Source of the DNA: Phaeobacter sp. G2
Lineage (GTDB): Bacteria; Pseudomonadota; Alphaproteobacteria; Rhodobacterales; Rhodobacteraceae
DNA: 64,000 nt
Assembly (NCBI GenBank): GCA_025163595.1
Contig: CP104100.1
Location: 3,410,001 to 3,474,000, forward strand
Direction of reading: 5' to 3'
Positions 8,275-12,537 of the stretch are shown piece by piece (position 1 is the first letter of the stretch; each line of letters starts with the position of its first letter). The position numbers and the translations under genes were made by a program. Under the pieces are notes generated by a model. That model did not search any database, was not told the origin of the DNA, and saw only the letters and a list, made by a program, of their open reading frames with translations.

Positions 8275-9993
8275 GTGACACATGTACTCTGGCGTGGGGA
8301 TCTCATTCAACGCAGCCGCACCGTTAGCGGTGTGTTTCTGCTTACCTATGCTTTGCTGCATTTCCTGAATATTGCCGCCGGGCTGGTCTCTGCTGATTTC
8401 ATGTTTCAGGTGCAGGAATTCCGTCGCCTGCTCACCGGCCACCCACCTGGCCAGATACTGTTGTTTTCCGCGCTTTTCACGCATTTCTCCCTGGCCCTGT
8501 GGCAGGTTGCCAGCCGCAGAACCCTACGGATGAGCCCGGCACAAGCACTGCAGTTGATCCTGGGGCTTTTGATCCCTCTGCAATTGATCCAGCACCTGAT
8601 CTTCACCAGCTATGCATCCAGCGCCTATGGGCTAGATGACGACATGCCCTCGATCATATTATTGATGTGGAATTCCCCAGAGATCTGGCAACAGTATCTG
8701 CTGCTGCTGGTGGTCTGGGTGCATGGCTGCATTGGGCTGCATATGTGGCTGCGGATCACCGACTGGTGGTCCCGGCTGTTGCCCTACATGATCGGCCTGG
8801 CCGTTCTTGTGCCCTCTCTGGCCCTGGCCGGACTGCTGACCGAAGGCCGTCGCATCTGGTCAGTCTTTATCCGCCCCGGCAATGCCTCGGTGATCCGCGA
8901 CAGTTTTAACTGGCCGAATAACACGGCTTTTGCCCGCCTATATGAGATCTATGATTTTGCCTTTTGGCTGTTCATTGCCCTGCTCAGCGCCGCCGTGCTG
9001 ATCTTTTATCTGCGCCGCTTTATCCGCAAACGGAAATCCCTGCAGATCCGCTATGAAAATGGCACCCAGATCACCATCGAACACGGGCTTACCCTGCTGG
9101 AGATTTCCCAGCTCAACGGCTTGCCGCATACCTCGCTTTGTGGTGGCAAGGGGCGCTGCACCACTTGCCGGATCGAAGTGACCAAGGGGCTGGAAAACCT
9201 CGCCCCACCCAGCAGCGCCGAGGCGCGGACGCTGAAAGCGATCAAAGCCCGTGATAATGTGCGGCTGGCCTGCCAGATCAGGCCAACTGCCTCGCTGTCG
9301 ATCCAGCGTGTCTACCAGGCAAAAGGACGCCGCCAGGTCCATTCAGCCCAGGGCGTGGAAAAAACCATCGCGGTCCTGTTTTTAGATATTCGCGGCTTTA
9401 CCGCACGCTCGGCCGGGTTGCTGCCCTATGACATTGTCTTTCTGCTGAACCGCTTCTTTGATGCTATTGTGCCTGAAATCACCATGGCCGGAGGCACCGT
9501 CGACAAATACATGGGCGATGGGCTGTTGGCCCTGTTTGAAATGAACAGCCCGGAACAGTCGGCCCAAGCAGGTATCACTGCGGCGGGCAATATTGGCGTC
9601 GCATTGGCCCGCTTTAACATGATGCTGGCCTCAGAGGGCGAAGACCCGGTGCGTATCGGCATGGGGCTACATACCGGAACCGTTGTATTGGGGGAAATTG
9701 GCACCACCGACAACGCCCCCCGCACGTTGATCGGCTCCGCAGTAAATGCCGCCAGTCGGCTGGAGGCCAAAACCAAAGAGCTGGGGGTCGAGCTGCTGAT
9801 CTCGGACTCTGTGGTGCAGGCGGCGGGCATGGTCGCGCCACAAGCGATGTTGCAGGACTTTTCCCTGCGCGGCGTCGACCATCCCGTCCGCGCCCTGCCG
9901 GTTGCACAGGCCTCCACCCTGGAACAACTGCTGTCTCCCCTCACAGATCCAGAGGCAACCACATTTGCTGTCGCAACCGACCAGGGGCGCTGA
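8275..9993 (+). CDS. Membrane-anchored [2Fe-2S] class III adenylate cyclase (CyaC-like)
   Basis: The 572-residue protein starts at GTG (8275). Residues 17-250 give about six membrane helices with histidines inside or near them (29, 70, 107, 150, 156), like the 6TM di-heme b anchor of Sinorhizobium CyaC and of succinate/fumarate dehydrogenases. Residues 257-345 form a ferredoxin domain with Cys289, Cys295, Cys298 and Cys333 (C-x5-C-x2-C). Residues 362-560 are a class III cyclase domain with metal aspartates Asp371 and Asp415, and Lys411 in the adenine-specificity position. The layout suggests cAMP synthesis set by the quinone or redox state. Heme and cluster binding are inferred from residues only. 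Confidence 0.85.
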   Translation: MTHVLWRGDLIQRSRTVSGVFLLTYALLHFLNIAAGLVSADFMFQVQEFRRLLTGHPPGQILLFSALFTHFSLALWQVASRRTLRMSPAQALQLILGLLIPLQLIQHLIFTSYASSAYGLDDDMPSIILLMWNSPEIWQQYLLLLVVWVHGCIGLHMWLRITDWWSRLLPYMIGLAVLVPSLALAGLLTEGRRIWSVFIRPGNASVIRDSFNWPNNTAFARLYEIYDFAFWLFIALLSAAVLIFYLRRFIRKRKSLQIRYENGTQITIEHGLTLLEISQLNGLPHTSLCGGKGRCTTCRIEVTKGLENLAPPSSAEARTLKAIKARDNVRLACQIRPTASLSIQRVYQAKGRRQVHSAQGVEKTIAVLFLDIRGFTARSAGLLPYDIVFLLNRFFDAIVPEITMAGGTVDKYMGDGLLALFEMNSPEQSAQAGITAAGNIGVALARFNMMLASEGEDPVRIGMGLHTGTVVLGEIGTTDNAPRTLIGSAVNAASRLEAKTKELGVELLISDSVVQAAGMVAPQAMLQDFSLRGVDHPVRALPVAQASTLEQLLSPLTDPEATTFAVATDQGR

Positions 9994-10234
9994 CCTTCGC
10001 CTCCCCGCCCTTGCGTTGCCCCCCCAACACCAAACGCGCAAACAGGCCAAACTTATCGTTCCAAACTTTTGCCCCGGTGCGGTCCTGTGTCCCCCTCTGG
10101 GGAGCCCACCAGGAACAGCGCCCCCAGAACACCCGATAAATCAAACCAGACTGCGTTGCAGCCCTGCAACGCGGGCCGTTTGCACCAATTTGTGAGATTT
10201 TCCCCCTTTGCAGCTGCAGCAATTTATGCGATGC

Positions 10235-10248
10235 GTTCACGCGTGAAC
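10235..10248. promoter_or_regulatory. 14-bp perfect palindrome upstream of the fusion gene
   Basis: gttcacgcgtgaac is a perfect palindrome ending 19 bases before the start of a gene whose N-terminus is a winged helix. Position and symmetry fit an operator, perhaps for self-control. No binding data can be read from sequence. Confidence 0.5.
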
Positions 10249-10267
10249 ATACACTGATCAAGACACC

Positions 10268-12343
10268 ATGACTGCAGCCAACTCAAATCTTACCCCGGAT
10301 GAGGAAGACCTGCTCTTCCGACTCCTGCGCCAGCTGGACCTGGCGCCGGAGGCCTCGCAGCGCGCGACGGCCTCGGCTTTGGGTATGTCCCTGGGCGGGT
10401 TGAACACCCAGCTGCGCGCGGCTGCGGATGCCGGATTGATCGCAATCAGCGACCGCCCCGGCCCCGACAAACGGCAGCGCTATACCTACACATTGACCAG
10501 GGCTGGCGCCTCCGAAAAACGTCGCCTGACCGATCAATTCCTCTCCCGCAAGCTCGCTGAATACAACGCGCTTTATGCGGAACTCACTGGCACAGCCAGC
10601 GGCTTGCCTCCCATTAAACACAGGACTCATCCAATGCAGAACAATCTGGCTCCTATCCCCGAGCTCTATGTCTCTTATGACTCTGCTCAAAAGCTGAAAA
10701 TTGACGCAGGCGAACTGAAAAGCCACGACCTGACACCGCGCCAGATCTGCGATCTTGAGCTTCTAATGAATGGCGGCTTCAACCCGCTCAAAGGCTTCCT
10801 GACCGAGGATGACTACAACGGCGTTGTGGAAAACATGCGGCTGGCCGATGGGTCGCTCTGGCCGATGCCGATCAACCTGGATGTCTCCGAAGAGTTTGCC
10901 GAGACCCTGGAAGTGGGCGAAGATATCGCCCTGCGCGACCAGGAAGGCGTGATCCTCGCCACCATGACCGTCACCGACCGCTGGACGCCAAACAAGGCCC
11001 GCGAGGCCGAAATGGTATTTGGCGCCGACGATGACGCACATCCCGCGGTCAACTACCTGCACAACCAGGCTGGCAGCATCTATCTGGGCGGCCCTGTCAC
11101 CGGCATCCAGCAGCCGGTGCACTATGATTTCCGCGCCCGCCGCGACACCCCAAATGAGCTGCGCGCCTATTTCCGCAAACTGGGCTGGCGCAAGGTTGTC
11201 GCCTTTCAGACCCGCAACCCGCTGCACCGCGCCCACCAGGAACTGACCTTCCGCGCCGCCCGCGAAGCTCAGGCCAACCTGCTGATCCATCCGGTTGTCG
11301 GCATGACCAAGCCCGGCGACGTTGATCACTTTACCCGCGTGCGCTGCTACGAGGCCGTTCTGGACAAATACCCAGCCTCGACCACTGCGATGAGCCTGCT
11401 GAACCTGGCAATGCGTATGGCCGGCCCACGGGAAGCCGTCTGGCACGGGCTGATCCGCAAAAACCACGGTTGCACCCATTTCATCGTTGGCCGCGACCAC
11501 GCCGGCCCCGGCAAAAACTCTGCCGGTGAAGATTTCTACGGCCCCTATGATGCGCAGGAACTCTTCCGCACCCATCAAGAAGAAATGGGCATCGAAATGG
11601 TCGATTTCAAACATATGGTTTGGGTATCGGAACGCGCGCAGTATGAGGCCATCGACGAGATCGAAGACAAGGATGATGTGACCATCCTCAACATCTCGGG
11701 CACCGAACTGCGCCGCCGTCTGGCCGAAGGTTTGGAAATCCCCGAGTGGTTCTCCTTCCCCGAGGTGGTCAAAGAACTGCGCCGCACCAAGCCACCGCGC
11801 TCCAAGCAGGGCTTCACCGTTTTCCTGACCGGGTTGTCTGGGTCGGGTAAATCCACCATCGCCAACGCGCTGATGGTCAAGCTGATGGAAATGGGTGGTC
11901 GTCCGGTGACCTTGCTGGATGGGGATATCGTGCGTAAAAACCTCAGCTCCGAGCTGGGCTTCTCCAAAGAGCACCGCGATCTCAACATCCGCCGCATCGG
12001 TTATGTCGCGTCGGAAATCACCAAGAACGGCGGTATCGCCATCTGTGCGCCCATTGCCCCCTATGCAACCACCCGCCGCGCCGTGCGCGAAGACGTGGAA
12101 GCCTTTGGCGCCTTTGTTGAAGTGCATGTCGCCACCTCGCTGGAAGAATGCGAGCGCCGCGACCGCAAGGGTCTGTATAAGCTGGCTCGCGAAGGCAAGA
12201 TCAAAGAGTTCACCGGGATCTCCGACCCCTATGATGTGCCAGTCAACCCAGAGCTGAGCGTAGAAACCGAAAATGTTGATGTGGACAACTGCGCCCATCA
12301 GGTTCTGCTCAAGTTGGAAAACATGGGGCTGATCGCAGGCTAA
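10268..12343 (+). CDS. sat/cysC: MarR-like winged helix fused to ATP sulfurylase / APS kinase
   Basis: One open frame of 691 residues. Residues 1-115 resemble EPS-associated MarR-type regulators (ASALGMSLGGLNTQLRAA, then RYTYTLTRAGASEKRRL). A linker follows, then Met123 (base 10634) starts a 569-residue enzyme matching the usual Sat/CysC length: ATP sulfurylase with QTRNPLHRAH at 314 and GRDHAGPG, then APS kinase with P-loop GLSGSGKST at 522. Together these make APS and PAPS from sulfate and ATP. An acagga stretch before base 10634 could allow internal initiation. Either it is a true fusion, or two genes merged by a lost stop; taa at 10615 lies in another frame. Confidence 0.9.
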   Translation: MTAANSNLTPDEEDLLFRLLRQLDLAPEASQRATASALGMSLGGLNTQLRAAADAGLIAISDRPGPDKRQRYTYTLTRAGASEKRRLTDQFLSRKLAEYNALYAELTGTASGLPPIKHRTHPMQNNLAPIPELYVSYDSAQKLKIDAGELKSHDLTPRQICDLELLMNGGFNPLKGFLTEDDYNGVVENMRLADGSLWPMPINLDVSEEFAETLEVGEDIALRDQEGVILATMTVTDRWTPNKAREAEMVFGADDDAHPAVNYLHNQAGSIYLGGPVTGIQQPVHYDFRARRDTPNELRAYFRKLGWRKVVAFQTRNPLHRAHQELTFRAAREAQANLLIHPVVGMTKPGDVDHFTRVRCYEAVLDKYPASTTAMSLLNLAMRMAGPREAVWHGLIRKNHGCTHFIVGRDHAGPGKNSAGEDFYGPYDAQELFRTHQEEMGIEMVDFKHMVWVSERAQYEAIDEIEDKDDVTILNISGTELRRRLAEGLEIPEWFSFPEVVKELRRTKPPRSKQGFTVFLTGLSGSGKSTIANALMVKLMEMGGRPVTLLDGDIVRKNLSSELGFSKEHRDLNIRRIGYVASEITKNGGIAICAPIAPYATTRRAVREDVEAFGAFVEVHVATSLEECERRDRKGLYKLAREGKIKEFTGISDPYDVPVNPELSVETENVDVDNCAHQVLLKLENMGLIAG

Positions 12344-12395
12344 GCCGCCTGCCCGAACTGCCAACCCGAGCAGCCTGGGCAATCGCCCTGAACAG

Positions 12396-12432
12396 ATAAA
12401 CGGCCCGTCCTTCCCAAGGACGGGCCGTTTAT
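12396..12432 (+). terminator. Strong hairpin terminator after sat/cysC
   Basis: A perfect 17-bp stem (5' arm starting ataaacggcccg) closes over a ccc loop, with the 3' arm ending in gtttat and ttgt following. It lies 52 bases past the stop, where one expects the end of the transcript. The symmetrical arms could also stop transcription arriving from the convergent GT10 gene. Confidence 0.9.
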
Positions 12433-12537
12433 TTGTCAGTCTCAGTCTCACCGTGGTTTTCCGCGATTACGGCGCGCCCCGGCGGACCTGAGTAAACTTC
12501 AGTTAATTGCGAAAGCCCTGCCTGAAACAGACCGCAG

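Follow-up and report, generated by a model that had tools for sequence, protein, structure and literature searches.

Can an enzyme that activates sulfate also regulate its own gene? Sulfate activation consumes ATP, and to the question of how roseobacters control it we found no answer in literature titles and abstract openings. A locus in Phaeobacter sp. G2 gives the question a concrete form. Within the 64,000-nt stretch of DNA analysed here (the window), a single uninterrupted frame at 10268–12343, opening with an ATG at 10268, runs through 691 codons and joins a MarR-type winged helix to ATP sulfurylase (Sat) and APS kinase (CysC). Our analysis points to an enzyme that probably controls its own production, the sequence bringing together a candidate regulator, what seems to be its only operator and two starts for translation in one gene of a major marine group. 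The features of the locus are collected in Table 1.

Table 1 Sequence features of the MarR-Sat-CysC locus (window coordinates)
Feature	Position	Strand	Basis or remark
CTTTGC box, candidate -35-like promoter element	10206..10211	+	CTTT at this spacing in 54/97 fused loci; putative promoter role
Palindromic candidate operator TGCGTTCACGCGTGAACATA	10232..10251	.	Ends 16 nt before the long start codon
Long product, MarR-type winged helix + Sat + CysC, 691 aa	10268..12343	+	Profile matches, family recurrence
MarR/EPS-type winged-helix domain, residues 10–107, with 30-residue C-terminal helix	10295..10588	+	AlphaFold2, Foldseek, TIGR04176
Predicted recognition helix, residues 42–54	10391..10429	+	Helix assignment in the model
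Linker, residues 108–122	10589..10633	+	Constant length in 82/83 full-length fused proteins
Internal Shine-Dalgarno AGGA within linker codons	10622..10625	+	Conserved AGG/AGGA
Predicted short product, Sat-CysC without winged helix, 569 aa	10634..12343	+	Start codon conservation
ATP sulfurylase PUA_2 domain	10655..11110	+	Pfam
ATP sulfurylase catalytic domain	11141..11785	+	Pfam
APS kinase domain, P-loop GLSGSGKST	11807..12262	+	Pfam; S524–T530 invariant in 42 proteins
Strong terminator-like hairpin 3' of the stop	12390..12437	+	-36 kcal/mol, z -10.55 vs shuffles

The fused enzyme

Pfam profiles assign HTH_24, PUA_2, ATP-sulfurylase and APS_kinase to the 691-aa protein. Residues 121–690 belong to the bifunctional Sat/CysC family NF004040 (NCBIfam), with 1044.9 bits against a curated cut-off of 669, and the catalytic motifs at R316–H323 and S524–T530 are invariant across 42 fused proteins; we take RNPLHRAH to be the ATP sulfurylase motif and GxSGSGKST to be the P-loop of APS kinase. 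A whole-protein search of the Phaeobacter sp. G2 genome returned this one locus only (CysD/CysN-type enzymes fall outside such a search), and elsewhere the genome has one gene of the PAPS-reductase family. Among solved chains, the Sat part is closest to 1i2d/1m8p, Penicillium ATP sulfurylase, and also matches 2gks, with 672, 670 and 568 bits to these chains, and the winged helix is covered by none of the 36 solved sequences matched, the best stretches of which begin at query residue 130 at the earliest. A full-length model was poor (pLDDT 69.6, pTM 0.47) and too uncertain to assign domain contacts or an oligomer.

The winged-helix domain

Residues 12–107 match MarR_EPS (TIGR04176, NCBIfam) with 78.5 bits, below the curated equivalog cut-off of 88, and the same holds for two further fused domains (81.9 and 85.4 bits); three stand-alone copies scored 138.8, 142.8 and 151.4 bits. 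TIGR04176 describes a stand-alone gene at an EPS locus, and the present domain is in frame with sat. We treat the fused domain as a sister group of TIGR04176 and not as a member, although that family is its best match.

The AlphaFold2 model of the domain (pLDDT 88.3, pTM 0.78) comprises three helices, a wing of two strands and a C-terminal helix of 30 residues, and this modelled combination of a winged helix with a long dimerisation-type C-terminal helix is that of the MarR superfamily. Nearly all of the best Foldseek matches to the model are MarR-family regulators (best E 8.5e-5); query-normalised TM-scores are moderate, 0.42–0.61 over 33 matches at E <= 0.001, and the non-MarR protein Sso10a-2 is also among these. 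A search of the domain sequence against solved structures gave no relative (best E 0.67). In an alignment of 69 fused and stand-alone domains, R32, S41, G43 and Y74 are invariant and R71 is nearly so. By analogy with the general winged-helix fold, residues 42–54 may act as the recognition helix, which S41 and G43 adjoin. A domain search of the Phaeobacter sp. G2 genome gave one match in total and no second EPS-MarR.

Distribution and conservation of the fusion

The family was sampled with 394 genomes representing 393 genera. The fusion is present in 91 of these genomes, among them the divergent G330, and in 90 of the sampled genera; most family genomes are unfused. Regulator-domain scores are bimodal, the 90 fused matches lying at 113–250 bits and the stand-alone copies among the matches listed at no more than 83.5 bits, with frames of mostly 119–225 aa; G330 (locus L114) is fused with a regulator domain of only 43 bits. 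Stop-to-stop frames of the loci fetched from this sample are mostly 691–741 aa long, with a maximum of 1059 and with two shortened by contig ends to 267 and 601 aa; two of the 90 fused matches (G066 and G414) reach contig ends. These profile matches and this recurrence bear out the original prediction of a regulator-like domain fused in frame to a complete PAPS-making enzyme.

In a search of 60 genomes with the first 121 residues as the query, the domain was located in a frame of 690–699 aa in 10 of 11 members of the genus (Phaeobacter sp. G2 included) and in five others. Samples at class and phylum level contained 2 fused genomes of 385 and 15 of 398, respectively, all of Rhodobacteraceae, and none outside that family. 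Within the named set of loci, fusions occur in Pseudophaeobacter, some Phaeobacter, Shimia, Aliiroseovarius, Octadecabacter, Cognatishimia, Tateyamaria, Marivivens, Silicimonas, Gemmobacter, Nioella, Planktomarina and others, and sat is unfused in the returned records of Sulfitobacter, Ruegeria, Tritonibacter, Roseovarius, Celeribacter and Jannaschia. A plasmid search matched the domain in 19 records, none covering 80% of it and all annotated as stand-alone MarR_EPS.

Beside the unfused genes fetched, no regulator-like partner was found: tblastn at E 0.01 found neither a decayed nor a separate MarR gene in 44 unfused loci with flanks of up to ~4 kb, and nine in-frame extensions of unfused sat contained nothing MarR-like by eye. 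In the fused proteins, the sole exception to the constant linker length is the divergent L114, with 22 additional residues. Median dN divided by median dS, taken over nine loci of the genus, comes to 0.082 in the regulator and 0.061 in the linker, compared with 0.040 and 0.029 in two parts of Sat, and by this sequence measure the regulator half and the linker are under purifying selection. Together with the constant linker length, this argues that the long form is translated, since an untranslated frame would not be expected to stay so.

On a Sat tree of 126 sequences, which was made quickly and has many open forks, the fused label changes 23 times on the best tree, and supported branches demand at least 6 changes; a single origin without further events was rejected on these numbers. 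Because linker length, operator (see below) and internal Shine-Dalgarno sequence are common to the fused loci, a single old fusion followed by losses or by replacement of the whole locus appears more likely than repeated fusion, the tree itself being no proof. The eleventh member of the genus, G001, has an unfused sat with different upstream DNA, without regulator or palindrome (its draft frames are broken); this may be a replacement within the genus, with the sat locus exchanged as a unit.

A predicted internal translation start

The position corresponding to 10634 is a start codon in 81 of 83 fused genes, with ATG in 77, GTG in three and TTG in one; the remaining two genes have their ATG one codon before it. 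At -12 to -10 relative to this start, 79 of the 83 genes have the Arg codon AGG, which is otherwise rare (elsewhere in these genes, AGG accounts for 32 of 4351 Arg codons), and bases -12 to -9 read AGGA in 78. With a strict Shine-Dalgarno sequence defined as AGGA, GGAG or GAGG within -18 to -5, 81 of 83 Sat starts qualify, compared with 57 of 1301 other internal ATGs. All 31 fused genes of the named set carry it, against 3 of 49 unfused genes there and 1 of 44 in the first set, although this strict test misses the GAGAG-like sequences and the extra ATG two codons upstream that are common in unfused genes. The chosen long start is preceded by a strict Shine-Dalgarno sequence in only 4 of 83 genes, which counts against the autoregulatory reading developed below.

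The simplest reading of these internal signals is that the fused gene would also yield plain Sat-CysC, with estimated masses of about 76 kDa for the long product and 64 kDa for the short one. A long and a short product, beginning at 10268 and 10634, had been put forward as one possibility in the original prediction, and both starts gain sequence support here: the long one from selection and linker length, the short one from its Shine-Dalgarno sequence and start codon. For Roseobacter litoralis, a proteomic study (PMC4103551) lists 64.39 kDa for an entry under the name bifunctional sulfate adenylyltransferase subunit 1/adenylylsulfate kinase, which we do not count as evidence for the short product.

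A palindrome at the sat promoter

A palindrome, GTTCA-N4-TGAAC, lies ~20 nt 5' of the long start. Within 260 nt upstream of the match, its core, TTCA-N4-TGAA, is present at 99 of 101 fused loci and at none of 44 unfused ones (for the fused loci, 97 of 99 by genome, as the genomes of L001/L031 and of L011/L058 are counted twice). Of the two fused loci without it, L052 has its upstream region cut off, the promoter with the site being on another contig, and L055 has two copies with one core mismatch each. Each of the 98 sites compared has a G before and a C after the core, which extends it to GTTCA-N4-TGAAC, within a wider consensus ATGYGTTCA-N4-TGAACACA. The distance from the core to the chosen start is most commonly 20 nt (31/98), and at 54 of 97 fused loci a CTTT starts exactly 30 nt upstream of the core. 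A scan of the window gave no consensus sigma-70 promoter, and neither the stretch in the window nor five stand-alone loci had an Rfam match upstream. The site adjoins both the start and a promoter-like box, a position suggestive of repression. In 19 of 97 fused promoters (L107, L109, L110, L112 and others) a second operator-like near-match is found 25–49 nt further upstream, most often at a spacing of 32 or 49 nt.

The association of site and fusion recurs in the named set, in which the core stands before each of the 31 fused loci and before 1 of 49 unfused ones; for 10 of the fused loci, the genome was already part of the first set. In all 6 independent pairs on supported branches of the Sat tree, the operator changes along with the fusion (sign test, median p 0.03). 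The single unfused locus with the core belongs to Celeribacter sp. PS-C1 (L267), where the core lies 40 nt before the match start, either by chance or as a relic.

There is apparently one operator per genome, as judged from pattern searches. The strict 20-mer TRYGTTCANNNNTGAACRYA has 51 exact sites in 50 of 80 fused genomes (the other 30 are without an exact copy); 50 of the 51 are at the sat promoter by coordinate, and the remaining one (G224) is on a broken contig end and reads as the same promoter. Of 80 genomes that gave no fused frame, 2 have the strict 20-mer, in one inside an open frame (G247) and in the other 5' of a stand-alone EPS-MarR gene (G025). With the central six bases left free, the 20-mer occurs without mismatch exactly once, at sat, in seven of eight same-genus genomes and is absent from G001. 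The site at 10232–10251 is the only zero-mismatch 20-mer in the Phaeobacter sp. G2 genome, which contains 3 further sites with one mismatch, versus 1 for the reversed control pattern, and GTTCA-N4-TGAACR at three other places, all inside open frames. A broader regulon was considered and rejected, all other core matches lying within open frames, a statement that refers to strict sites and leaves room for weaker ones elsewhere.

A related palindrome precedes the stand-alone EPS-MarR genes, which indicates that the site travels with the domain. Within 160 nt upstream, exact GTTCA-N4-TGAAC is found at 14 of 37 such loci and in 0 of 682 control windows, the form with at most one mismatch at 20 of 37 and in 3 of 682, and the looser GYTCR-N4-YGARC, a pattern devised after inspection of the stand-alone sequences, at 34 of 37 and in 5 of 682. 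The palindrome of these genes is mostly ~90–145 nt upstream, and a second element, TGCGGYAGC, which we take to resemble the ops/JUMPstart element, is present at 34 of 37 stand-alone genes and at 0 of 101 fused ones. Palindrome and TGCGGYAGC before the stand-alone genes (L185–L222; 34/37 each within 160 nt) together have the look, on the pattern of their sequences, of a leader for roseobacter EPS loci in which promoter and antitermination are combined. L203, the sole stand-alone locus inspected, has polysaccharide-type genes downstream, as judged by eye.

A candidate autoregulator and alternative explanations

We consider it likely that the locus encodes a trigger-enzyme-like MarR-Sat-CysC autoregulator with a long and a short product made from one gene. 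The winged helix of the long product would bind GTTCA-N4-TGAAC as a dimer beside its own promoter and thereby lower sat-cysC transcription, and the same mRNA would give plain 569-aa Sat-CysC through the internal ribosome site, which is a strong one. How much repressor is active would depend on the proportion of long and short chains and, probably, on the state of Sat-CysC, with substrate, APS or PAPS bound. A more specific version, which we regard as a tentative proposal, has the PAPS synthase acting as its own repressor in mixed long/short complexes, with its PAPS or substrate state shifting the winged helices on the single operator, such that enzyme saturation would be read as promoter output. 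Penicillium ATP sulfurylase is allosterically inhibited by PAPS, and a PAPS-driven change in the fused protein is plausible by analogy; the likeness to 1i2d/1m8p is in itself no evidence for it here.

Four other explanations were weighed. That a sequencing or assembly error merged two adjacent genes has practically no probability left. The out-of-frame taa at 10615, from which the original prediction had raised a one-base error or indel, is present, but 91 of 394 family genomes are fused in independent assemblies, the linker is constant in 82 of 83 proteins and is under purifying selection, and the arrangement of two genes with a stop near 10615 was not seen in relatives, the 44 unfused loci having no regulator match. 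It is improbable that the long protein alone is made, with the internal ATG and AGGA as relics of an unfused gene: the Sat start is ancestral, since unfused relatives begin at or near the same place, but the strict Shine-Dalgarno sequence is carried by few unfused sat genes (GAGAG-like sequences being uncounted), and the rare AGG codon has been kept in 79 of 83 fused genes.

The winged helix could also be a non-regulatory part that serves oligomerisation or stability, the palindrome being bound by another factor. Many MarR proteins have ligand pockets, which the short fused domain may lack, and its TIGR04176 scores are below the cut-off, in keeping with such a role; we nevertheless give it little probability, as the palindrome is absent from the 44 unfused loci, a related one stands before stand-alone copies of the domain, and the conserved residues named above (R32, S41, G43 and Y74) are invariant, and R71 is nearly so, across the 69 aligned domains. 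Very improbable, finally, is a main role of the fused protein in regulating exopolysaccharide genes, or regulation of sat by a stand-alone EPS-MarR, either of which would link PAPS supply to sulfated polysaccharide. The closest domain family takes its name from EPS loci, the one stand-alone locus inspected (L203) has polysaccharide-type genes after it, and some fused genomes have a stand-alone copy as well among the matches listed; however, the 50 of 80 fused genomes with the strict site have it at sat and nowhere else (weaker sites elsewhere being possible), and the domain search gave a single copy in the Phaeobacter sp. G2 genome.

Comparison with known systems

Trigger enzymes have a second function in repressing the genes that encode them. 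The fused protein resembles them (PutA, the proline dehydrogenase that represses putA/putP; BirA, NadR and PepA) as a metabolic enzyme with a predicted DNA-binding function, in that the sequence places an enzyme and a DNA-binding-type domain in one polypeptide; unlike in these systems, the conserved internal start should add enzyme without the DNA-binding part. PutA is described as binding only the putA–putP spacer (PMC8249747), and the fused protein is predicted from operator co-occurrence to act likewise on its own promoter, apparently at one target place. PutA serves proline breakdown, whereas the fused protein combines a MarR/EPS winged helix with ATP sulfurylase and APS kinase in sulfate activation.

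With the MarR_EPS regulators of TIGR04176, its best-match family, the fused domain has residues in common and a related upstream palindrome; those regulators differ in being stand-alone and in having the palindrome farther upstream and followed by TGCGGYAGC. NF004040 and the solved relatives, including 2gks (Bifunctional SAT/APS kinase), represent the same complete enzyme, but have no match to the winged helix. As in MocR/GabR proteins, an N-terminal winged helix is joined to an enzyme-type fold, in their case that of an aminotransferase (PMC4944035); there the enzyme fold serves the regulator, whereas in the present case the whole-protein search found no other Sat in the genome and the catalytic motifs do not vary among the fused proteins compared. 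Arabidopsis ATPS2 is likewise an ATP sulfurylase gene with long and short forms from in-frame starts, but it is eukaryotic and carries at its N terminus a plastid transit peptide in place of a regulator (PMC4283515).

In titles and abstract openings of the open-licence literature we found no prior description of a MarR-Sat-CysC fusion, and the main text of a comparative study of regulons in Proteobacteria (PMC5343134) has no sulfur or cysteine match and mentions MarR for other pathways. The present results suggest that such proteins, if named merely Sat/CysC, hide a regulator. If the autoregulatory reading is true, the locus would provide an unusually clean system to test how the catalytic state of an enzyme becomes gene expression.

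Flanking sequences

The hairpin downstream of the stop is not among the intrinsic terminators listed by a pattern scan. Upstream, the translation of the ORF at 8275–9993, judged by eye, seems to contain membrane helices, a stretch resembling a 2Fe-2S ferredoxin and an end resembling adenylate cyclase. Between this gene and the operator, the inverted repeat GCGTTGCAGCCCTGCAACGC at 10153–10172 is partly kept across members of the genus and is perhaps the terminator of the gene that ends at 9993.
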